Made by a program: the position numbers and the translations under genes. This document shows, piece by piece, positions 837-14,520 of a stretch of DNA of 26,610 nucleotides. The notes beneath the pieces were generated by a model. That model saw only the letters and a program-made list of their open reading frames with translations, did not search any database and was not told where the DNA came from. Numbering within the stretch: position 1 is the stretch's first letter; the number at the start of each line of letters is the position of its first letter. Origin of the DNA: a virus; the IMG/VR virus record IMGVR_UViG_3300027749_000435, positions 1-26,610 of that record; one strand, 5' to 3'.

Positions 837-1057
837 ATAAATATATAGAAATGCGCAATTCAGGTCAATATAATATTGTATGGTTCTATGACTATTATAA
901 TCTTAATGGAGGTAAGGCTATTGATTTAAATCAATTTCATTCAGCATTTCAAATGTATGGATTAAATGATATAGTGGCAGGATTAGATAAGAAATTAAAT
1001 CTAAATTCAATTCTTGATAAAAATGGAAACACAATTAAAATATTAAAAAATGAATAA
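830..1057 (+). CDS. small hypothetical protein, 75 aa
   Basis: ATG at 830 lies within the end of the upstream gene, and the TAA at 1055-1057 overlaps the following ATG at 1050. The protein has an aromatic N-terminal half (sequence YNIVWFYDYYNLNGG), then FHSAFQMYGLNDIVAGLDKK and a Lys/Asn-rich tail. The first part reads like a helix-loop-helix (a turn at LNGGKAIDLNQF and a following helix). I recognise no motif or family. Gene status rests on the chain of coupled overlaps and on protein-like composition. Confidence 0.7.
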   Translation: MVDKYIEMRNSGQYNIVWFYDYYNLNGGKAIDLNQFHSAFQMYGLNDIVAGLDKKLNLNSILDKNGNTIKILKNE

Positions 1058-1385
1058 CTTACAGAAGACTCATATAGGAATGATTAATTCATTCAATATT
1101 TTATTAGGCCACGCTACAGTAGAAGAAGTTGTTAGTTCGGGAATAGGGTTCTTTACCCATTCTCCTGACACAGATGGTTCATTAGAGAGTATAGAGTTTA
1201 TGATATTCTATTTCAAAAACCTTGAGATGTATGAAAGATGCTCTAAACTAAAGGAGTATATTGATAAAACATTCAATGAAGATGGAACATTCAAAGAAGA
1301 ATCTTGTAAGTGTGAGTATCCTGAGATAGATGAATATGTTCGTAAAATAAAATGTTGTACATGTAACCTAAGAATTAAAATGTAA
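1050..1385 (+). CDS. hypothetical protein with C-terminal cysteine cluster, 111 aa
   Basis: The N-terminal two thirds look helical and contain a stretch typical of a small alpha-helical domain (LESIEFMIFYFKNLEMYERC). The last 30 residues carry CKCEYPEIDEYVRKIKCCTC, a CxC plus CCxC arrangement that could bind zinc. I do not recognise the family. The start overlaps the upstream stop by eight bases, and the stop is one base before the next small ORF. A regulatory or host-modifying role would be speculation. Confidence 0.7.
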   Translation: MNNLQKTHIGMINSFNILLGHATVEEVVSSGIGFFTHSPDTDGSLESIEFMIFYFKNLEMYERCSKLKEYIDKTFNEDGTFKEESCKCEYPEIDEYVRKIKCCTCNLRIKM

Positions 1386-1473: not shown

Positions 1474-2940
1474 ATGCAATCTAATATATTAGAGAGAAGT
1501 TCGGGTTTTAATAATGAAGAAATGTTTAAAAGATGTGATATACTTAAGAGTATTGCATTTGATACAGTTGAAACAAAATCAGGAAGAGGTAAGCATGCAA
1601 AGATTATTAAAAATTTTAAACATAATATACCCTCTGAAGCTAGACAACGCATAGCTAATAGTTATGAGCATTACAAAAAACTTTACGAGAAAGATATGGA
1701 AAGAAATAATCAAATCAAATTTAGAGATTATCAGTTTGCTATTATAAGAAAAGGTACAGAGATAGTAACCAATAATGGCTTCTTATACTTAGCTATGGAA
1801 GTTCGCACAGGAAAGACTCTTACAAGTCTTGGAATTGCAGAAAGAATTAACAGTAGCAACGTATTGTTTTTAACAAAAAAGAAAGCGATAAGCAGCATTC
1901 AGAAGGACTACGAGATGCTTAACCCTCCTTATCATTTAACAGTTACCAACTACGAGAGTTTACATAAGATACCTGATACCAAGTGGGATTTGATTATTTG
2001 TGATGAGGCTCATAGTATGGGAGCTTTTCCTAAGCCAAGTAAGAGAGCTGTTCAAGTAAAAGACTTAATAATATTGACAAAAGCTAATGTTATTTTATTA
2101 TCAGGTACTCCTACTCCTGAGTCATACTCACAGATGTATCATCAAGTTTATGGAATACCAAAAAATCCTTTCAAAGAATATAATAGTTTCTACAGATTTT
2201 GTGATAACTTTGTAAAAGTAACCTCTAAGATTATTAATGGACTATCCATGAATGATTATTCAAAAGGTTTGGATACTATAGTTAAAGCAATGGAGCCTTT
2301 TACAATAAACTATACTCAAGCAGAAGCAGGATTTGTAGCTACAACTACAGAAGAAGTATTTGAAGTAGAGTTAAAAGAATCAACCTACAAGTTGATTAAT
2401 AAGTTAAAGAGAGATTTAATTATAGAAGGTAAAGAAGAAGTTGTATTAGGTGACACTCCTGTAAAGTTAATGAGTAAGATACATCAATTGTATTCAGGAA
2501 CAGTTAAGTTTGAGAGTGGAAAGTCAATGGTAATTGATACCACTAAAGCAGAGTTCATTCAACAACAATGGATGGGTTGTCAGATTGGTATCTTCTATAA
2601 GTTTAAAGAAGAATTAGTAGCTTTGCAGCAAGTATTCGGAGATGAACTTACTACTGACCTAGATGAATTTAATTCGTCCTTTAAATCCATAGCTTTACAA
2701 ATAGTTTCAGGTCGTGAAGGTATAAGTTTAAAAAAAGCAGAGTATCTTGTATATTATAATATTGATTTCAGTGCTACAAGTTATTGGCAGTCTAAGGACC
2801 GAATGACTACTAAGGAAAGATTAGAAAACCAAGTGTTTTGGATATTCGCTAAAGGCGGTATTGAACATGAGATTTACAAAGCAGTAACCAAGAAGAAGGA
2901 CTACACGTTGGCCCACTTCAAAAAAGATTTTGACTTATGA
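1474..2940 (+). CDS. SNF2/DEAH-box superfamily 2 helicase (DNA translocase)
   Basis: This 488-aa protein carries the superfamily 2 motifs in order: Q-like FRDYQ at about residues 83-87, motif I MEVRTGKT (108-115), motif II DEAH (177-180), motif III SGTPTP (210-215), motif V SGREGISL (412-419) and motif VI QSKDRM with its arginine (439-444). The short second RecA lobe and the compact size fit phage SNF2-like helicases, which remodel replication or recombination intermediates using ATP. The first 80 residues are a charged helical extension. Neighbouring nucleases and a DnaA-like protein support a DNA-processing role. The last four bases overlap the next small gene (ATGA). The superfamily is certain; the precise substrate is unknown. 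Confidence 0.92.
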   Translation: MQSNILERSSGFNNEEMFKRCDILKSIAFDTVETKSGRGKHAKIIKNFKHNIPSEARQRIANSYEHYKKLYEKDMERNNQIKFRDYQFAIIRKGTEIVTNNGFLYLAMEVRTGKTLTSLGIAERINSSNVLFLTKKKAISSIQKDYEMLNPPYHLTVTNYESLHKIPDTKWDLIICDEAHSMGAFPKPSKRAVQVKDLIILTKANVILLSGTPTPESYSQMYHQVYGIPKNPFKEYNSFYRFCDNFVKVTSKIINGLSMNDYSKGLDTIVKAMEPFTINYTQAEAGFVATTTEEVFEVELKESTYKLINKLKRDLIIEGKEEVVLGDTPVKLMSKIHQLYSGTVKFESGKSMVIDTTKAEFIQQQWMGCQIGIFYKFKEELVALQQVFGDELTTDLDEFNSSFKSIALQIVSGREGISLKKAEYLVYYNIDFSATSYWQSKDRMTTKERLENQVFWIFAKGGIEHEIYKAVTKKKDYTLAHFKKDFDL

Positions 2941-3071
2941 TAAATTCAACAGAATGGTGGGAAGGTTATCCTCCTGAGGAAAAACAATGCATTTGCAAAT
3001 ATTGCTCAGAGGATTCCGATGGAGAATTTTGCAACAGAGAATGTGCTAAGGCATATAAACAAGACAACTAA
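2937..3071 (+). CDS. small zinc-finger-like protein, 44 aa
   Basis: ATG at 2937 overlaps the helicase stop (ATGA, 2937-2940) and the frame closes with TAA at 3069-3071. The product begins MINSTEWWEGYPP and then contains C18-X-C20-X2-C23-X8-C32-X3-C36, ending in a Lys-rich helix (ECAKAYKQ). The spacing CxxC then CxxxC with CN/RE around the second pair resembles short treble-clef or zinc-ribbon proteins. It fills the only gap between the helicase and the next gene. It could be a nucleic-acid or protein adaptor for the helicase, but that is inferred from position only. Confidence 0.7.
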   Translation: MINSTEWWEGYPPEEKQCICKYCSEDSDGEFCNRECAKAYKQDN

Positions 3072-3081
3072 ATAAATAATA

Positions 3082-3369
3082 ATGGCAAGTAAAAGAAATA
3101 GGATGGCAGGAGACCATCCTTCCTATGACAAACTAAATATGTCAGAAGAAAGGAGAAAGAAGAAATTAGAGTATGACTCCAATTATGAAAAAAGTAATAA
3201 GAGAGTTAAGTATCGTGAGGAATTAAATAAAGCCAATCATCATGCCGGAACTTACGGTAATGGAGATGGAATGGATATGAGTCATACTAAGATTGGTGGC
3301 ATGGTAAAAGAGAACATGATGTCCAATAGAGGAAGAAATGGTCATAACGGTAAATCTACAAAGAAATGA
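3082..3369 (+). CDS. basic phage protein with possible HNH-like remnant, 95 aa
   Basis: The protein is strongly basic and probably partly disordered. Its central half reads RVKYREELNKANHHAGTYGN, then GDGMDMSHTKIGGM, then SNRGRNGHNG. This layout (GTYGNGDG, Asp/Ser-His, Gly, then an SN-Arg tail) recalls short phage proteins of the HNH-nuclease lineage, in which D-H plus NR motifs form the metal site. The canonical second histidine is not obvious here, so nuclease activity is doubtful and a nucleic-acid-binding or virion-associated role is equally possible. The gene begins ten bases after the zinc-finger gene, and its TGA overlaps the next ATG. Family assignment is tentative. Confidence 0.75.
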   Translation: MASKRNRMAGDHPSYDKLNMSEERRKKKLEYDSNYEKSNKRVKYREELNKANHHAGTYGNGDGMDMSHTKIGGMVKENMMSNRGRNGHNGKSTKK

Positions 3370-3698
3370 TAAAATGTTTATGTATAGACGCAGACAACAA
3401 GCCTAGTAAGATACCTCAACACAAATGGCTAGAGAAAGATAAAGAGTATACATTGGCTTTCAGCATGACTGTGCTACCTCAAAAGCAATTGGCTTTCCAA
3501 GTTCAAGAGATTGACCTTGATGATAGTTGTTCTCCATTTACGTGGTTTTTGGCTAGTCGATTTTCTTTTAGAAAAGAAGATTTAGATAAGCTAGTTGAGT
3601 TCATAAAAGAATGTAATAAAATTACGTTCTCAGTGAATGAGTTAATGAAGACAACTAAGATAGATGAAAGAAAGTCAGATACAATCGAAAAAGATTAA
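3366..3698 (+). CDS. conserved hypothetical protein, 110 aa
   Basis: The N-terminus MIKCLCIDADNKPSKIPQHK is followed by WLEKDKEYTLAFSM, then VQEIDLDDS and an ending with FRKEDLDKLVEFIKEC. This is a small beta-rich domain: a strand, a WI/WL-x-K-G/D-x-x-Y turn and further strands. I associate it with uncharacterised proteins of Bacteroidota phages and prophages that begin with a similar 'IDD.NKP..IP...W' pattern. No catalytic motif is visible. ATGA coupling joins it to the upstream gene, and its last 35 bases overlap the nuclease gene. The function is unknown; co-location suggests a link to DNA processing only by association. Confidence 0.72.
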   Translation: MIKCLCIDADNKPSKIPQHKWLEKDKEYTLAFSMTVLPQKQLAFQVQEIDLDDSCSPFTWFLASRFSFRKEDLDKLVEFIKECNKITFSVNELMKTTKIDERKSDTIEKD

Positions 3699-3906
3699 GG
3701 AACTTGAAGCTCAGGGATATTACGTTCTAAAGTTGATTAAAACCAATAAGAATGGAATCCCTGATTTACTTGTTATCCCTCCTAATTCTGATGTATTATT
3801 CATAGAAGTGAAAGGACCAACAGGTAAGTTATCAAAATTACAAGAGTATAGAATAAAAGAACTGACCGCTCATGGAGTAAAGGCAGAAATATTTAAACCA
3901 ATTTAA
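3664..3906 (+). CDS. VRR-NUC domain nuclease, 80 aa
   Basis: This is a stand-alone VRR-NUC protein of the PD-(D/E)XK superfamily. Visible motifs are an early Glu (E3), GIPDLLVIPP with the catalytic Asp at 34, FIEVKGPTGKLSKLQ with Glu48 and Lys50, and the conserved Gln60 helix. The length matches minimal phage VRR-NUC proteins, which cut branched or structured DNA. The chosen ATG lies inside the end of the previous gene in another frame; it keeps the N-terminal helix carrying E3, which the fold needs. The SNF2 helicase upstream and the DnaA-like protein downstream suggest a recombination or replication-fork processing set. Family confidence is high; the biological substrate is inferred. Confidence 0.88.
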   Translation: MKESQIQSKKIKELEAQGYYVLKLIKTNKNGIPDLLVIPPNSDVLFIEVKGPTGKLSKLQEYRIKELTAHGVKAEIFKPI

Positions 3907-3910
3907 TCAA

Positions 3911-4423
3911 ATGCAATCATACAAAGAACAACAGGATTTAGAGATAATAAAATTAAAAGAAATAATAAACGAGACTTTTAGTGTAGATGTTTGTAATATT
4001 AGTAGAAAAAGAGAAATCATAGATGCTAAAAAAATATACTCAAAAATATTAAGAGATAGAGGATATAGTTACGAAACTATAGGCCAATCTATAAATAAAA
4101 ATCATGCCACAATATTGCACTACATGAGTAGTATAGATTTTACTCTTACTTATGATAAAGTAATGACTAATAAATATATATTCTGTAAAAAAATATTTCT
4201 TAACGACTTAGATGAGTTGCCTATAAAGAAAAAAAGAATGAAAGACAAGGATATATTTATGACTGTAGCAAGACTTAACGTAGAATTACAGGAAGCTATA
4301 TCCGATAAGAAACAAATATTGACTAAATTTGTAGACTGCATTGAGAAATATGAAAAAGAAAAAGGATATTATTTTAATAGCGAGGTATTAAAAAAAGTAA
4401 TATTACCATTGTTTAATGAATAA
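3911..4423 (+). CDS. DNA-binding protein with DnaA domain IV-like helix-turn-helix, 170 aa
   Basis: Residues about 30-72 match the C-terminal DNA-binding domain of the replication initiator DnaA: SRKREIIDAKKIYSKILRDR, then the helix-turn-helix SYETIGQSINKNHATILHYM, equivalent to the DnaA signature IG..F..DH.TV.HA. There is no AAA+ ATPase domain, so it is not an initiator by itself. The rest of the protein is helical and charged, with a coiled-coil-like stretch near residues 110-150. It may bind DnaA-box-like sites in phage or host DNA, to recruit or to block DnaA. It starts four bases after the VRR-NUC stop. The domain call is strong; the role is inferred. Confidence 0.85.
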   Translation: MQSYKEQQDLEIIKLKEIINETFSVDVCNISRKREIIDAKKIYSKILRDRGYSYETIGQSINKNHATILHYMSSIDFTLTYDKVMTNKYIFCKKIFLNDLDELPIKKKRMKDKDIFMTVARLNVELQEAISDKKQILTKFVDCIEKYEKEKGYYFNSEVLKKVILPLFNE

Positions 4424-4433
4424 AATATAAATT

Positions 4434-4628
4434 ATGAAACCCATTTTAAATAGCGAATTCGAAAGAGCATCTAGGATTGCTAAGAGATTAAACGACTACC
4501 ACTTATTATTAGCTAATATCTACGAGAATTTAGTTGACCGTGATTTTAATATGGTTAGAAAAGAAACTCAAATTTTAATTATTGAATTAAGATATATACT
4601 AAAATCAACAGAAGAAGATGACTTTTGA
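4434..4628 (+). CDS. small helical hypothetical protein, 64 aa
   Basis: The ORF starts ten bases after the DnaA-like gene with the leader AAATATAAATT before ATG, typical of Bacteroidota starts. The product is predicted almost wholly helical (FERASRIAKRLNDYHLLLAN, then ETQILIIELRYIL) with an acidic tail EEDDF. It could be a small helical hairpin that dimerises or binds a partner. No family is recognised. Its TGA (4626-4628) lies inside the start of the next nuclease gene, an 11-base overlap that suggests coupled translation. Confidence 0.7.
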   Translation: MKPILNSEFERASRIAKRLNDYHLLLANIYENLVDRDFNMVRKETQILIIELRYILKSTEEDDF

Positions 4629-5031
4629 AACAGAGCAAGACTTAAAGAGAGAACAAAAAGCTATAACTACATTTGTAGATACATTCGGTGGCTCGTTTAA
4701 AAAACTTGACCCACATGATATTGACTACAAAGTATTTGATAAAAGCGGAAATCTAATAGCATATGCTGAAGTGAAAGGAAGAATTAGAACCATGCACAAT
4801 GCGTATCCACTTCCTGTAGCGGCAAGAAAGGCAGTAAAGCTTATAGATAAAAGATTGTCTCCTGTAATGATATGGTCTTGTGAAGATGGTATAATCTACG
4901 GAAAACTTAATAAATTAAAAGGAATAGCCAAGTGGGGTGGTCGTCCCCCACGTGTAGGCTCCTTTAATGATTTAGAGTTAATGATTTTCTATGATAAGCA
5001 AAAAGAATTAAAGTATGTTAGATTTGTCTAA
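4618..5031 (+). CDS. PD-(D/E)XK-like nuclease, 137 aa
   Basis: The core reads an N-terminal helix with Glu12 and a basic stretch, then HDIDYKVF (Asp34/Asp36), a turn DKSGNLI, and AEVKGR with Glu51 and Lys53. This is the Glu/Asp...(D/E)xK layout of the restriction-endonuclease-like fold; later helices and strands (LPVAARKAVKLIDK, SPVMIWSCEDGIIYGKL) complete a small alpha/beta domain. Such proteins in phages act as structure-specific or general nucleases. It is the last gene of the rightward operon and its stop overlaps the end of the leftward 1928-aa gene by four bases. It is distinct from the VRR-NUC protein upstream. The fold is probable; the substrate is unknown. Confidence 0.78.
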   Translation: MTFETEQDLKREQKAITTFVDTFGGSFKKLDPHDIDYKVFDKSGNLIAYAEVKGRIRTMHNAYPLPVAARKAVKLIDKRLSPVMIWSCEDGIIYGKLNKLKGIAKWGGRPPRVGSFNDLELMIFYDKQKELKYVRFV

Positions 5032-5032
5032 C
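5017..5032. other. small palindrome at the convergent gene junction
   Basis: GTTAGA (5017-5022), loop TTTG (5023-5026) and TCTAAC (5027-5032) form a 6-bp perfect hairpin exactly where the rightward nuclease gene ends (5031) and the leftward 1928-aa gene ends (5028). A hairpin at a convergent junction could help end both transcripts. There is no T-tract on either strand right after it, so it is a weak intrinsic terminator at best. The last codons of both genes lie within it. Confidence 0.3.
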
Positions 5033-8000
5033 TTCCTCCAAACATTATTTTATACATTTTAGGATTTGTTTTCTTAAGTTCTTCTTTGCTTATTTTTCCT
5101 TTTTCTTTTATCGGTTCTTTTTTATCAGTACCAAGTCCACCCGCTAGAATTGCATGTCCTAAAGACTCTAAAAATATTTTAGCAGTTTCATTATTTTTAT
5201 TTTTATCATATTTTTCTTTAAAATAATGAGTTATCGCTTCCCCAACCGGTATAGGAGTTTGATTTCTCAATATATATTCCATAAAACCAATCCCTCTTTT
5301 CTTTTTATCTTTTCCTCCAATAAATGCTAATGGATTATTCATTACATCTTTTTTTAATGCAATATCAGTAACAGTTCCTGCAATAGGACTTAACATATAT
5401 CTTCCTTGAGTTGACAAAGAATTCAATACACTAGATTTATGTTTTTCTCCAATCACTTGTTTATAGGATATTTCTCCAAGAGAAGCTAATAATTTATATG
5501 ATTGGTCATTTGATTTAGTTAATGGAATATAACTACCATCTTCTAATTTTGTACATAAAAAATCAGGCTTAGTAGGGTCAGTAACATTTACTTTTTCTTT
5601 TGAACCTAATGTTGCCAATACAAATTGATTTAAAGCCAATGCCGCTGCATGAACTGCTAATCCTTCCATCTGCCTTCTTAATGTAATTTTAGCTACATAT
5701 TTTTCTCCAACACTTGATTTACTATTTAATAAAGTACCCAATGCTCTAGTAGGATTCAATATTGTAGATTGGTATTTTGCAACAGTTAAATTCTTAGCAA
5801 ACAATACTGTATTAGCTACTTCTTCTAAACCACCGAGATGACCTCTTGTGGTTACTCTCCCTGCTTCAGTTTTATATTTAGAAGAGCCACTTGAATAATT
5901 ATATTCAGCAACTAAATTTTTTAAAAAATTAGGGTCTGATTTTATTATCTCAGGCGCTTTATTATATTGTTCGCTCATTTGAGATAGTCTAATTGCTTTT
6001 AAAGCAAAAAAAGCTCTTTCTCCTGCTGAATTAGATTTTCCTACTTCATATCCTGTATTATGAACCTCAGGATTAATATCTGCTCCTTCTTTTAAAAATA
6101 AATAATAATTAGGGTCAGCTAAGTGCACAATTTTAGCTTGCTCATAATATTTTTTACTAAACATATATTTATATTGATTTGTAAACATTTTCATAGAGTG
6201 ACTATACTCAGATGGTCTTTTTAAACCACCAATTAAATGCGTCATAAATCCAACTCCACCGTGTCCATAAACTTTAATTTTACGAAACATATCAGGAATT
6301 GATTTTAATGCTAATACAAATTTAGGAGTATTTGCTTCTTTAATAAACTCCCTAGCTAAATTCTGAGCCTGATTGATTTTATTTCTTTTTTCATACATAT
6401 CAACAGTAGTAACTCTTGATGATTTAGGTAATACAATAGCCTCCATAGTTTGTCTAACATTGTTTAATCCTAAATCTTCTGTTACCATTCTAACCATATC
6501 TGCAAATTCAACTCCTTTATCTAAGTATGTTTCTTTGGCATAATCCCAAATAGCTTTAGCTTGAGATGGATTAAATTTATTATCTGTCTTTCCTTTTAAA
6601 TTTTCTCTTAATTTAATAAGTCTATCTTGATATTTAACATCTTTAAGAGTAGCTGTCAAATCAGATATCTCTTTAGCCCATACAGAACTTTCTTTAGTAG
6701 GTTTTACTTTTCCTGATTGAACATCGTCAATTTGTTTTTGTAGCTGTTTTATTCTTTGTTTTATTTTTTTATCTATATCATCAGTTTCTTTAGTAGATAA
6801 ATCTATTTCCTTTTCTTTTTTACCATTTTTTTTCTCGTACTGTTCTGCTAATTCATCTTTAGCCTTAGATATTTTATCATAAGTATCTTGCAATTCTGTT
6901 TTAGCTTTAGCTATATCATCAGCAAGTTTCTGCACTAAATCAGATTGTTCCTTAGTAAGTTCATCTACATTTAATTCTTTCTTAAATTCATTTTCTAATT
7001 TATAAAAAGAACCGTCGTAAATATCTGTCTCACCCCTAAAGGCAGCACCTGTTTTACTCCAAGCAAGTTTAGTAGGAGCTATAACATCTTTATTAAATTT
7101 GTCAGCTTTTGCTTTGGCCTCGATATACTCAGGACTATCTATTCCTTTTTTATATGCTTCATTTACATCCTTTATTAATGTATCTTCAAAGTGAGCTCTT
7201 GCTACAGCCAATTCTTCAGCAGTAAGTACTTCTCCACTTTTTACTTTTTCTACAATAGCATCAATGTCCGCTCCTGCTTTTAATAGTTCACGACCTACTT
7301 GTACAGCATCCTCGCTATTCCAACCTTCACCGGGTACAGGGGCCTCTAATCCTAACTCGTTAGCAACCCTTTTCATTGATTCATTTCTAATACCAACCCT
7401 TAGAGATTCAGGTTCTTCAGTTGGCTTCTCTACAGGCTTAGGTTCTTCTATTGTAGTAATATCAGGAGTTTTTACTTCTAAAACTTTAGCAGGTTCAGCA
7501 GTAGGTATAGCATTTTTTTTATCGTAAAGTTTTTTTAACTTATTTGATGTTTTTTTTAGGTCTATTTTAGCCTCACTTAAGTCATCTTTATATGAATCAA
7601 TGATATCCTGTTGGTCTTCTTTAAAGTTTTCAATTTGATATTTTATTTCTTCTATCTTATCTAACTTTTCATCTCGACTTAAAGATTTATCTTTTTTAAC
7701 TTCTTCAAGTTCTTTTTTAATTTTTTCTTTTAATTCAACAATTCCCTCTTTAGTATTACTTTGTTCTGTTTTTATTTCATCTTGAATATCTTCAATTTTA
7801 CTTTCGTAATAGTTTACATCATCTTCAAGTTGAGATATTTCTTTATTTAATTTATATAATTCTTTAGATTCTACAGTAGCAACCTCAGTAGGCTCCTCTA
7901 CAGTAGCAACCTCAGTAGGCTTAGTTTCATTCCAATTTTCTATAACTTTAACTTTTCCAAAATCACGGACAAGTGCTTTTCTTGATTTAAATCTATCTAA

Positions 8001-10814
8001 GCTTTTATCTCCTACATTTTTTTCTATTGAACCATATTTTTTTGCTGATTCATTATCATATGTTCCAATATGCATAAGTTCTACTTCTGCATTAAAAAAG
8101 TTACGTTTACTAGGGTCTACTCTTGGATTTTCAAGAAGCTTATATACATATCTTTGACCATTCTCATCTCTAATATAAATATCTCCTACCTTTAATTCAT
8201 TTGCATTTATTTCTTTTGTTTTATAATCTCTAGGATTTATTTTAGTTGGCTTATTTTCATTGGTAATTTTTTTATTTAAAATATCTATAGCCTGTTCCTT
8301 AGTCAGATTATTTTTTCTTGCAATACCATCATTAGCTCTTTTATCAGGGAATGATATATTATAAGTATCTCCTACCTTAGAAATATAAGTTTTTTCAGCA
8401 ATTTCAATAGGAGCTCCCACACCACTTAAATCTGATTTAGCTTTTTCATCTATTGCAGTTATAAATTCTTCAGCAGTTTTTGGTCCTTCAGGAGTAACCT
8501 CAGTAGGCTTTACTTCTTCAGTAACTACTTCTTGCGGTTGAGATTCAATTCTTTTTACTTCATCTAATTTAGCCTGTGCTTCTTCTTTGGTTTTAAAAGT
8601 CAAAGGATTGCCATCTAAATCAGTTATTGTTTTCATAGATGGATTATTACCTTCTGATGCAGGGGTATAGTTTCCAATTAAAAACTCTCCATTATTTTCC
8701 TGAACAGTCATATTAGGAACGTCTTGGTCAAAATAAGTTTTATAATCCTTTACTTCTTGCGGTTGCGCATTAGTGATAGTTTGTTCGGTAGGGATTTCAG
8801 GTTTGGCGTTTCCTTCGCCCACTTTTTGCAGTCCCAATTCGGGTTGTTCTGTGCGTAGCACGCTTTCATTTGTTCTTTGCTTTTGAATGGCATCTTGTTC
8901 TTTTTTAAGGGTTTCTAAATTATTTATTTCAGTATCTATTTCGGCAATTCTAGGATTATTATCATCTTTAATTGTCTCTAATTCAGATTCTAGTTTAGCT
9001 ATTTTTACTTCAGGAGTTTCTATAACTGCATTATTTGTCAAGTCAGTTAACTCTGTATTTAAACCTTCTAATATTTGTCTTTTTTCATCTATATTAGTCT
9101 TAGCAGTATCTCTATCTGCTTGGGATTCTAAGTCTGTAAATCCTAATGATGCTTCGTCTAAACTAGCTTGAGCTTCAGATATTTTAGTGTTTAATTCTTT
9201 TTTCTTTAAACCAAGTTCAGAATTATCGAAATAATCAGCAATAGCAGCTGCTTTTTTAGTATAAAAACTTTTTTGGTCATCATTAAGGTCTTCATTATTA
9301 TTGATATCTTCAATAACAGCATCTTTATTTTCTACTATATTATTTATAGTAGTATGAGCATCCAATTGATTTTGAATTTTTAATGCTTGGTCTCCTAATT
9401 TTTTCTTTAACTCTAAATCAGGTTCTTTAAGAATAGCATCTCTCAATTGGTTTCTTGATTCTGTCAAATCTTTTACATCAGTTTCTGTTAGATTTTCATT
9501 ATGTGCTATTTCTAAATTATCTTTAGTTTCATTTAATACTCTAACATAAGAACCTAATGGGTCAGTCTTTAAAACATTATCATAATAATGATTAAGTTCA
9601 TTATGATTCTTATATAAACTTCCTGCATGAAGTAAACTAAATCCAATACCCATTGCTGCTTCTTGAGTCACTTCTCCTTTTGACAATAATCTTTGTTCAG
9701 TAATACCTGTTCTTAAAGCTCTAGCAGTAGTAAATACACCTGCTGTAGCTAAGGGATTAACTATAGCTGTAGCAACTGCACTATTGACTCCTGCCTTAGC
9801 TACTTGTTTGGCTATTACGGGAGTTACTTTTCCTGTAATTTCACCTAAACCATGTAGATATAAGCCTTCTGCGAATCCTTCTATACCTCCTTTTAATCCT
9901 TGTATAAAAGTATTATCATTCTCTTTTGCATTAGCCATAGCCTCTGTAGCGCCTTTTGCAGCCATTATCTTTGTCATTGCTGACTTTGCTCCTTCTTCTA
10001 AAAATTTAACTGCTTTAGGGGCATATTTTTTAATTAAAGGTTTTGCTTCAGTTACAGCCTTTTCAGTCCATAAAGTAGCTTTTCCTATTGCAGGCTCAGG
10101 ATTTTCTAAAAGTGCTGCTCCTAATATTTCAGGTACAAATCCAACTACTCCTTTTGCAACTTCTGTAGGTAAATTTCCTTCAGGTAAAGATTCTTTTTGA
10201 TACTTATCAATTCTTTTTATAGCATTTTGAATATGCGCAGAACCAAGACCTAGACCTGCTGTAAGAAGATTCTTTTGGTCTTGTGGTAAAGCAGAATTTA
10301 TTATTTTGGAAATAAGACCTTGTTGCTCAGCAGGTTTATAAGTCTCTGTTGCACCTTTACTTGCCATATTTTGCTTAACAGCATCAGTAATAGGAGTAGC
10401 AGTATCAGGTACTTTATCATCAAAAAATCCTGTTTCTTTCAACATATTTTTTGAAGAGTTTATAATATTATCGGCCCAAGTAAGGGCAGTCTTTGCTCCT
10501 TCAGATTCAAGAGCACCTAAATAATTTGCTGTCTTTTTAAAAACACCGTCTTCATTTTGTGACTGCGTAGCCAATGAACCAACTGCCGAAGGTGATTCCG
10601 TAGTATTTTGTTGAGGAATTTGAGTGTTTGATTCCCCAATACCTTTTTTTTTTACGTCTGTATCAAAATTAACTTGATTTGAATATTGAGGATATTTTTC
10701 AACCATTTTTTTAGCCAATGTAAGGTCATCAACATTTGCATATTGAGGATATTTAGCTTTTACTTTTTGAGCAAATTCTTGTGGAGTAATTGGATTTTGA
10801 GTATCTTCTTCCAT
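5028..10814 (-). CDS. giant modular putative internal/ejected virion protein, 1928 aa
   Basis: It is the last gene of the leftward virion operon. In order it shows: residues 10-50, a duplicated KYPQY motif domain (KYPQYANVDD, KYPQYSNQVN); about 180-395, Gly/Ala-rich amphipathic and hydrophobic helices that could associate with membrane; about 430-660, coiled coil; 690-960, three or more small beta-containing modules separated by Pro/Thr/Glu/Val linkers; 985-1100 and 1290-1370, Lys/Glu coiled coils; and about 1500-1928, a C-terminal domain with YGHGGVGFMTHLIGGLKRPS, of the type found at the ends of very large phage polyvalent proteins. Size, position after tail genes and membrane-seeking segments suggest a cargo protein carried in the particle and injected with DNA. 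No catalytic motif was recognised. It starts four bases after the upstream stop. Confidence 0.85.
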   Translation of the reverse strand: MEEDTQNPITPQEFAQKVKAKYPQYANVDDLTLAKKMVEKYPQYSNQVNFDTDVKKKGIGESNTQIPQQNTTESPSAVGSLATQSQNEDGVFKKTANYLGALESEGAKTALTWADNIINSSKNMLKETGFFDDKVPDTATPITDAVKQNMASKGATETYKPAEQQGLISKIINSALPQDQKNLLTAGLGLGSAHIQNAIKRIDKYQKESLPEGNLPTEVAKGVVGFVPEILGAALLENPEPAIGKATLWTEKAVTEAKPLIKKYAPKAVKFLEEGAKSAMTKIMAAKGATEAMANAKENDNTFIQGLKGGIEGFAEGLYLHGLGEITGKVTPVIAKQVAKAGVNSAVATAIVNPLATAGVFTTARALRTGITEQRLLSKGEVTQEAAMGIGFSLLHAGSLYKNHNELNHYYDNVLKTDPLGSYVRVLNETKDNLEIAHNENLTETDVKDLTESRNQLRDAILKEPDLELKKKLGDQALKIQNQLDAHTTINNIVENKDAVIEDINNNEDLNDDQKSFYTKKAAAIADYFDNSELGLKKKELNTKISEAQASLDEASLGFTDLESQADRDTAKTNIDEKRQILEGLNTELTDLTNNAVIETPEVKIAKLESELETIKDDNNPRIAEIDTEINNLETLKKEQDAIQKQRTNESVLRTEQPELGLQKVGEGNAKPEIPTEQTITNAQPQEVKDYKTYFDQDVPNMTVQENNGEFLIGNYTPASEGNNPSMKTITDLDGNPLTFKTKEEAQAKLDEVKRIESQPQEVVTEEVKPTEVTPEGPKTAEEFITAIDEKAKSDLSGVGAPIEIAEKTYISKVGDTYNISFPDKRANDGIARKNNLTKEQAIDILNKKITNENKPTKINPRDYKTKEINANELKVGDIYIRDENGQRYVYKLLENPRVDPSKRNFFNAEVELMHIGTYDNESAKKYGSIEKNVGDKSLDRFKSRKALVRDFGKVKVIENWNETKPTEVATVEEPTEVATVESKELYKLNKEISQLEDDVNYYESKIEDIQDEIKTEQSNTKEGIVELKEKIKKELEEVKKDKSLSRDEKLDKIEEIKYQIENFKEDQQDIIDSYKDDLSEAKIDLKKTSNKLKKLYDKKNAIPTAEPAKVLEVKTPDITTIEEPKPVEKPTEEPESLRVGIRNESMKRVANELGLEAPVPGEGWNSEDAVQVGRELLKAGADIDAIVEKVKSGEVLTAEELAVARAHFEDTLIKDVNEAYKKGIDSPEYIEAKAKADKFNKDVIAPTKLAWSKTGAAFRGETDIYDGSFYKLENEFKKELNVDELTKEQSDLVQKLADDIAKAKTELQDTYDKISKAKDELAEQYEKKNGKKEKEIDLSTKETDDIDKKIKQRIKQLQKQIDDVQSGKVKPTKESSVWAKEISDLTATLKDVKYQDRLIKLRENLKGKTDNKFNPSQAKAIWDYAKETYLDKGVEFADMVRMVTEDLGLNNVRQTMEAIVLPKSSRVTTVDMYEKRNKINQAQNLAREFIKEANTPKFVLALKSIPDMFRKIKVYGHGGVGFMTHLIGGLKRPSEYSHSMKMFTNQYKYMFSKKYYEQAKIVHLADPNYYLFLKEGADINPEVHNTGYEVGKSNSAGERAFFALKAIRLSQMSEQYNKAPEIIKSDPNFLKNLVAEYNYSSGSSKYKTEAGRVTTRGHLGGLEEVANTVLFAKNLTVAKYQSTILNPTRALGTLLNSKSSVGEKYVAKITLRRQMEGLAVHAAALALNQFVLATLGSKEKVNVTDPTKPDFLCTKLEDGSYIPLTKSNDQSYKLLASLGEISYKQVIGEKHKSSVLNSLSTQGRYMLSPIAGTVTDIALKKDVMNNPLAFIGGKDKKKRGIGFMEYILRNQTPIPVGEAITHYFKEKYDKNKNNETAKIFLESLGHAILAGGLGTDKKEPIKEKGKISKEELKKTNPKMYKIMFGGS
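7870..7921. repeat. 25-bp direct repeat in the linker of the 1928-aa gene
   Basis: A 25-base unit (7870-7894) recurs exactly at 7897-7921, giving a 27-base period. In the - strand protein it encodes two copies of (E)PTEVATVE at about residues 965-983, a Pro/Thr/Glu/Val linker between a beta module and a coiled coil. A related PTEVT motif occurs near residue 770. The in-frame period keeps the linker open and suggests expansion by slippage or duplication. Confidence 0.85.
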
Positions 10815-13704: not shown

Positions 13705-14520
13705 TTAAGGATAACTTTTCATTATATTAGCCTGAACTGCGAGAAGTTCAACTTTGCTAGTTGAATTATTTGTAGCTGTAAATGTACAATAATGTCCTAA
13801 CACTCCATGCGATTCTGCCACAGAATTTTTAATATATAAAAAATAAGCATTTTGAACAGGTATTGGAACTGTCGTATATCCCGGAACTGTTGTGGTAATA
13901 ACTATTCTATTTATACCATTAGGGTAGTCAGAATTTACAGCGGTTACTTTTCCTGCAAGCAAAGGAGTATTAGAAGGCGATTGAAAGAAATATAACAAAT
14001 CACCAATACTAATTATATTTCCTACTGCTACAAGTGGATTAATTGAAAAATTAATTGTAGTTCCTGATGTAACAGAAGAACTACTACCTATCCCATTTAA
14101 ACTTCTTAAGGCCAATTCTCCTATTGAGTTATTTCTAATAAATGCAAAATAAGACGCTTCTTTCTTTTGAAACCAAGTGTAGTCAATATATCCCGAATAT
14201 TGCAAGTCAGTTTGTAAAGTAATACCCCAAAGTGAATCTCCTTGAAGAGTTATTGTTTTGAACAATTTATTCTCAAGAACGGAATTATTAAATACGCTAG
14301 TAATACTACTAGGAGTATATGCTCCTGATGAATTACCCATCCTAGTCCACCAATCTTGGTAAAATGTATTACGAGATTCGTTTACATTGTGTCTATAAAT
14401 ATTACCTCCTTTAAATGTATAGAAATAATTGTTCATTCCAATCATCCAATCAGGTTGATAAGAGTAGTATGATACCCATCCTGTAACTCCTTCACTATAT
14501 GATAATGTATAATTTGGCAT
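13705..14520 (-). CDS. conserved tail-region structural protein, 271 aa
   Basis: The N-terminus reads MPNYTLSYSEGVTGWVSYYS then PDWMIGMNNYFYTFKGGN and IYRHNVNESRNTFY, followed by SITSVFNNSVLENKLFKTI, a Trp/Gly beta segment and KKEASYFAFIRNNS. I recognise this as a widespread phage structural family of marine and freshwater phages that sits beside tail genes, with no firmly assigned role. A beta-rich insertion (about residues 150-230) contains IGDLLYFF and GKVTAVNSD, similar in style to small modules in the capsid and ring proteins. It follows the 1611-aa gene by 22 bases and precedes the GNAT gene, so a tail or receptor-associated part is likely. Confidence 0.8.
   Translation of the reverse strand: MPNYTLSYSEGVTGWVSYYSYQPDWMIGMNNYFYTFKGGNIYRHNVNESRNTFYQDWWTRMGNSSGAYTPSSITSVFNNSVLENKLFKTITLQGDSLWGITLQTDLQYSGYIDYTWFQKKEASYFAFIRNNSIGELALRSLNGIGSSSSVTSGTTINFSINPLVAVGNIISIGDLLYFFQSPSNTPLLAGKVTAVNSDYPNGINRIVITTTVPGYTTVPIPVQNAYFLYIKNSVAESHGVLGHYCTFTATNNSTSKVELLAVQANIMKSYP

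Follow-up and report, generated by a model that had tools for sequence, protein, structure and literature searches.

Which process is served by a phage operon that joins an SNF2-like helicase, two nucleases and a protein resembling domain IV of the bacterial initiator DnaA? The question was raised by the viral contig of 26.6 kb held as IMG/VR record IMGVR_UViG_3300027749_000435, positions 1 to 26,610 of which form the window analysed here. Its four genes, at 1474-5031, kept a common order in 88 distinct loci of related phages. These phages encoded a primase-helicase, and a duplicated iteron element was present in the relatives. With moderate confidence, the operon is proposed to supply replication restart and junction resolution within a two-origin system that resembles that of phage SPP1 and depends on the host polymerase. 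The closest annotated genome was MW202828.1 (uncultured podovirus ctfjg026, Manatee Spring), a circular contig of 60,850 bp. The features of the locus, with lengths in amino acids (aa), are as follows.

1050..1385, plus strand: conserved gene of 111 aa just upstream of the helicase; profile match in 59 loci; MW202828 has a homologue at this position.
1474..2940, plus strand: SF2/SNF2-like DNA helicase or translocase, 488 aa; profile and motifs.
2937..3071, plus strand: 44-aa gene, phrog_35839, its start overlapping the helicase stop; found in 22 loci.
3082..3369, plus strand: 95-aa gene, phrog_6437; found in 48 loci.
3366..3698, plus strand: 110-aa gene; found in 59 loci.
3664..3906, plus strand: stand-alone VRR-Nuc, 80 aa, GIPD...EVK...Q motif intact; profile and conserved residues.
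3911..4423, plus strand: DnaA domain IV-like DNA-binding protein without AAA+, 170 aa; profile and AlphaFold model.
4434..4628, plus strand: 64-aa gene, phrog_32863, overlapping the next gene by 11 nt and nearly always its neighbour.
4618..5031, plus strand: PD-(D/E)XK protein (PDDEXK_14) with an Hjc-like fold, 137 aa; profile and model.
5028..10814, minus strand: convergent late gene, 1928 aa, marking the end of the early operon; context, outside the gene set.

A sequence-only reading of the window had named the four proteins as an SNF2-type helicase with its main motifs, a minimal VRR-NUC nuclease, a DnaA domain IV protein lacking the AAA+ ATPase and a PD-(D/E)XK-like second nuclease. The open reading frames (ORFs) were found where it had placed them, with four small genes between and with overlapping starts and stops (2937/2940, 3366/3369, 3664/3698 and 4618/4628), and all four identities were borne out. 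The helicase matched SNF2-rel_dom (2.6e-10) and phrog_62 (2.5e-52) above the cut-off, and the superfamily 2 (SF2) motifs I, II, III, V and VI (RTGKT, DEAH, SGTP, SGREG and QSxDR) were present and, with few exceptions, kept across 58 diverse relatives. VRR-Nuc matched PF08774 (5.5e-13), also above the cut-off, and its catalytic D, ExK and conserved Q were intact. Moreover, the active site was invariant, with E3, Q7, D34, E48, K50 and Q60 identical in 61 of 61 relatives. Stand-alone VRR-Nucs of phages and bacteria cut four-way (Holliday) junctions, and a role of the conserved Q has been reported (PMC4103454). The same cutting activity is predicted for the window protein.

The PD-(D/E)XK protein matched PF24579 (1e-6) above the cut-off and carried a D/ExK site, with E12, D36, E51 and K53 as the likely active site. 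Compared with solved structures, its sequence profile gave no meaningful match, and only the fold comparison was informative. For the model (predicted local distance difference test, pLDDT, 92), the closest folds were those of archaeal Hjc resolvases (Z 10.8 over 105 residues; Foldseek E 0.03), which ranked above the next, more remote nucleases. The protein shared the fold and the active-site layout with Hjc, but the identity was 12%.

For the DnaA-like protein, the single sequence matched PF08299 at 3.1e-6 and 27.5 bits, just below the cut-off of 31.5. The family profile, searched against solved structures, matched DnaA domain IV at E values of 2e-10 to 8e-9. The AlphaFold model of the 170-aa protein (mean pLDDT 90) superposed on the DNA-binding domain of Mycobacterium tuberculosis DnaA with Z 14.7 and a root-mean-square deviation of 1.4 Å over 92 residues, and on domain IV of Escherichia coli DnaA with Z 13.9. 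Neither the profile search nor the model contained an AAA+ domain. The protein shared the helix-turn-helix fold and several DNA-contact residues with bacterial DnaA, but it lacked the AAA+ motor and domains I-II, and its domain IV was N-terminal (residues ~1-101), followed by long helices at 106-151 and 157-169. Among the residues contacting the DnaA box, the equivalents of R399, H434, T436 and H439 were kept, whereas D433 was changed to N, T435 to A, and P423 was lost. Because of these changes, recognition of the standard DnaA box by the window protein is doubtful.

The gene set is not a chance arrangement: the scan of viral contigs gave 430 relatives of the helicase and 86 of the PD-(D/E)XK protein, and the order helicase, VRR-Nuc, DnaA domain IV, 64-aa gene, PD-(D/E)XK recurred in the 88 distinct full-length loci with enough flanking sequence to be surveyed. 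Thus the neighbourhood was conserved in relatives, and the nuclease folds held in structure prediction. The PD-(D/E)XK gene was kept in 85 of these loci and the DnaA-like gene in 76. In the other 12 the latter was missing or replaced, its slot being empty or filled by unrelated small genes, once apparently by another helix-turn-helix protein. The DnaA-like gene was the least conserved of the four and is therefore not the core of the operon. A peptide-pattern search of viral contigs confirmed no close relatives of its product, because the sequence diverges fast, and these were recovered instead through neighbours and profiles. MW202828.1 carried the same set in the same order (helicase 61%, VRR-Nuc 76% and PD-(D/E)XK 54% identical), together with two DnaA_C proteins and two iteron elements. 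It differed in that metallophosphatase and ThyX genes took the place, between helicase and VRR-Nuc, of the 44-, 95- and 110-aa genes of the window. Its annotation gave the genes only separately, as hypothetical or misnamed.

The nuclease and helicase part of the operon is ordinary, since pairs of SNF2 and VRR-Nuc recur in unrelated phages and phage VRR-Nucs are known Holliday-junction enzymes. The two matches lay 0.3-1.9 kb apart in seven phages. An SNF2-like helicase and a stand-alone VRR-Nuc, less than 2 kb apart where measured, were shared with Candidatus Heliusviridae, Vibrio phage VPMS1, Pseudoalteromonas phage PH1 and Staphylococcus phage 2638A, whereas no DnaA domain IV relative was found in them at the sensitivity used. 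In Heliusviridae both are core genes, but in contrast to the phages studied here, DNA polymerase I is also encoded (PMC9226167). The DnaA part is the more unusual part of the set. No paper on a phage protein consisting of DnaA domain IV alone and tied to an origin-like element was found in a search that left most subscription papers outside, so novelty is unproven.

Gene content was compared in 29 near-complete relatives, 13 of which formed the first comparison. The BT4734_N primase-helicase was encoded in all 29 and the Sak annealase in 28, and the exonuclease (DUF3799) was present in all 13 genomes first compared. None of the 29 had a match to PolA, PolIII-alpha or PolB (families A, C and B) or to the AAA+ domain of DnaA (PF00308). 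The N-terminus of the primase-helicase matched a PrimPol model, and a phage polymerase activity of this kind may reside there. The operon came after the annealase, exonuclease and primase-helicase genes in the relatives, a position that supports the earlier proposal that it processes replication or recombination intermediates. Furthermore, proteins with the Bac_DnaA_C domain were encoded in all 29. A DnaA domain IV paralogue of ~100 aa, located upstream and adjoining the annealase gene, was present in every genome compared, and the 170-aa operon protein is the second copy relative to it.

The processing had been suggested to take place at DnaA-box-like sites, and this suggestion stood only in part. 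DnaA boxes (TTATNCACA, TTWTNCACA and TTATCCACA with one mismatch) were at or below chance and unclustered in the window and 13 relatives, and the proposed clusters of TTATNCACA and near variants were not recovered. Clustered iterons of DnaA-box size, ATCGACAT, did exist in relatives, but their sequence differs from the DnaA box and they lie outside the window. They resembled only the 3' half of the box, TCGACA being weakly like the TnCACA read by the recognition helix. In 26 genomes examined for these elements, the region upstream of the primase-helicase gene comprised, usually after a terminator-like stem, an AT-rich tract, two iterons, a core resembling the consensus of integration host factor (IHF) and 2-3 more iterons, the last of which ended at the start codon. 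The element abutted the gene in 26 of 26 genomes and was degenerate only in G026. Iteron density averaged 3.0 per 140 bp directly upstream of the primase-helicase, compared with 0.11 upstream of other ORFs. The exact IHF consensus, WATCAANNNNTTR, occurred in this element in 13 of the 26 genomes, against about 0.3 expected from genome-wide counts.

With a profile built only from sites upstream of the primase-helicase, a second copy in the same orientation was found in 25 of 26 genomes, at a distance of 9-16 kb. It stood at the start of the early region, ahead of about 1 kb in which most ORFs were short, and lay 0.2-2.1 kb from the minimum of the cumulative GC skew in 22 of 23 genomes. In MW202828 the pair was placed as follows.

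MW202828, 42681-42796 and 53611-53721: the two iteron elements.

Phage SPP1 has two origins ~12-13 kb apart, each with direct repeats and an AT-rich unwinding element, and its replication restart uses a junction resolvase, a 5'-3' exonuclease and an annealing recombinase; it has been proposed that the fork stalls at the second origin and that reversal, resolution and recombination-dependent concatemer synthesis by the host replisome follow (PMC6316719, PMC3485210). Compared with SPP1 (gp38, oriL/oriR, gp44, gp34.1 and gp35), the present family likewise has two elements of direct repeats and AT-rich DNA about 10-13 kb apart (here in relatives only) and the same three functions of junction resolvase, exonuclease and annealing recombinase, and it would likewise use the host replisome. 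The proteins differ: SPP1 possesses the origin-binding gp38 with a loader, a DnaB-type helicase and a RusA-like resolvase, whereas here a PrimPol-type primase-helicase, DnaA domain IV proteins, VRR-Nuc and an Hjc-like protein are found. Because the family has functional counterparts of the SPP1 parts in different proteins, the operon is placed at the restart and resolution step. An iteron element would be the place where the primase-helicase initiates replication, and forks would later stall or run into branched intermediates. The SNF2-like helicase might then remodel or regress the branches, and the four-way junctions would be cut by VRR-Nuc, alone or jointly with the Hjc-like protein. The Sak annealase and the exonuclease encoded upstream would drive recombination-dependent concatemer synthesis.

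The DnaA domain IV proteins, the ~100-aa upstream copy and the 170-aa operon copy, would act as sequence-specific DNA binders without a motor. As the leading idea, at least one of them would mark both iteron elements, leaving unwinding to the primase-helicase. The universal upstream copy appears the better candidate for iteron binding, because genomes lacking the operon copy still have both elements; the operon copy may be accessory. More tentatively, and with less than even confidence, motor-less DnaA domain IV proteins might have replaced the AAA+ initiator, marking a duplicated mini-oriC and handing over to the PrimPol-type primase-helicase, while the operon copy would link this binding with the processing of junctions and with restart at the second element. 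The elements thus give this phage group, widespread in aquatic habitats and without a DNA polymerase of family A, B or C, an origin candidate that can be named and tested. If the proposal is true, the DNA-binding domain of DnaA is separable from its ATPase and still serves phage replication.

Several observations weigh against the two-origin proposal. The elements are known from relatives only, the window ending before both, and divergent transcription confounds the evidence from GC skew. The upstream element reaches the primase start codon and may thus be a promoter or operator. Four genomes without the operon DnaA copy (G008, G009, G012 and G014) kept both elements, and hence this copy is not required for them. 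Covariation of an iteron base (G/A) with the D433 equivalent of the upstream copy was promising in 26 genomes but did not stand out in 46 loci. In addition, the catalytic K53 of the PD-(D/E)XK protein was lost in 8 of 60 relatives (L010, L016, L023, L027, L037, L048, L049 and L078). On the tree these losses go back to two or more independent changes, and E12 was often lost as well. K29, L30, D34, P64, L65, W86, C88, D90, G91 and I92, the last five forming a WxCxDGI motif, were invariant in all 60, and this motif, together with the loss of the lysine in a subset, further distinguishes the family from archaeal Hjc. Since K53 was lost in some lineages while other residues remained invariant, catalysis is unlikely to be the only role; a decaying active site beside such residues argues for a second, non-catalytic one.

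Iteron binding by the primase-helicase itself is a strong rival. The alpha protein of satellite phage P4 likewise binds its ori and crr sites. In the full form of this explanation, which we consider rather improbable, the DnaA domain IV proteins are ordinary transcription regulators and the operon is a plain recombination kit with a regulator; DnaA-type helix-turn-helix domains would then have been turned into ordinary phage regulators. The upstream element abuts the primase-helicase gene without exception, and the primase-helicase is universal whereas the operon DnaA copy is not. Furthermore, DnaA_C domains are re-used outside DnaA with other targets, as in TnpA_REP-like proteins (PMC6006769). 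However, the ~100-aa paralogue is universal too, and the weak likeness of the iteron to half of the DnaA box favours a DnaA-type reader.

It is unlikely that the elements are promoter or operator regions of two early transcription units, rather than origins, at which the DnaA domain IV proteins regulate early genes. In favour of this view, each element stands at the head of an early gene block behind a terminator-like stem or AT-rich tract, and iterons come as close as a few bases to the primase ATG. Yet the succession of AT-rich tract, iterons, IHF consensus and iterons is a typical origin layout, and the second copy lies near the skew minimum before its stretch of mostly short ORFs. A take-over of the host, with host DNA degraded or nicked by the nucleases, or with initiation at host DnaA boxes blocked or redirected by the DnaA domain IV protein, is improbable: the four retained contact residues and the lack of any excess of standard boxes over chance in the phage genomes fit it, but the changes at D433, T435 and P423 make standard-box recognition doubtful, and the genes are located in a replication and recombination cluster.

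The rightward early region of the window ended with the operon and met the late genes at 5028-5031, where the GC skew also flipped. The right part was a late gene block on the minus strand, encoding virion proteins that matched PHROG families, the portal among them. The 1928-aa late protein (5028-10814) had long low-complexity stretches rich in E and K and no family match; the MW202828 protein in the same place has 3859 aa. The protein at 13705-14520 matched the C-terminal domain of the crAss phage muzzle (PF25729, 3.3e-13), which suggests a common tail for crAss-like phages and the window phage. Crass-like phages also carry SNF2, PD-(D/E)XK, ThyX and metallophosphatase genes, and an IHF-like gene within the structural block is a signature of Crassvirales (PMC7886860). 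Phage-encoded IHF/HU (PF00216) was found in none of the 29 near-complete relatives, a profile that a divergent crAss IHF might escape.

The family comprises phages of roughly 60 kb, whose relatives infect marine and freshwater Flavobacteria. The portal shared ~47% identity with its counterparts in Flavobacterium and Maribacter phages and had further matches in Cellulophaga and Tenacibaculum phages; hence the host is likely to belong to Flavobacteriia. Elemovirus (Flavobacterium phage elemo) resembled the family in its portal (47%), annealase, exonuclease, N-terminus of the primase/helicase (42%) and metallophosphatase. In contrast, elemo has an annotated replication initiation protein, the helicase, DnaA domain IV and PD-(D/E)XK queries were unmatched, and the iteron element was not found in the elemo stretch examined. 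No near-identical DNA was present among phage records, and the host search in genome contigs gave three uninformative matches, all metagenome bins. The tyrosine integrase (PF00589), a sign of prophage lifestyle, was found in 0 of the 29 near-complete relatives. GroES and GroEL were phage-encoded (MW202828 40671-42561) and kept in all 13 genomes first compared.

Of 26 near-complete relatives, 20 carried a lineage-specific palindrome of 16 bp in 6-15 copies. Most copies lay in the early region and others in the late half; the window had none. The forms of the palindrome were GTGTCTT-NN-AAGACAC, GTCTCTT-NN-AAGAGAC, GTCCGT-N4-ACGGAC, GTGTCCT-NN-AGGACAC and GTGTCGTTAACGACAC, with examples in L166-L168 (G002), L169-L172 (G003) and MW202828 43745-55154. 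A tie to the DnaA domain IV proteins was rejected, as G001 and G005 encode these but lack the palindrome. A protein of ~200 aa without a Pfam family was encoded in 20 of 20 genomes with the palindrome and in 2 of 6 without it, both divergent (L169:11437-12072 in G003; MW202828 43867-44475), and the palindrome often lay directly after its stop codon. This protein may bind the palindrome, as a regulator or as an organiser of the DNA. In G028 (L191), a palindrome-less genome, an 8-bp repeat ran through nine tandem steps at 117-181.

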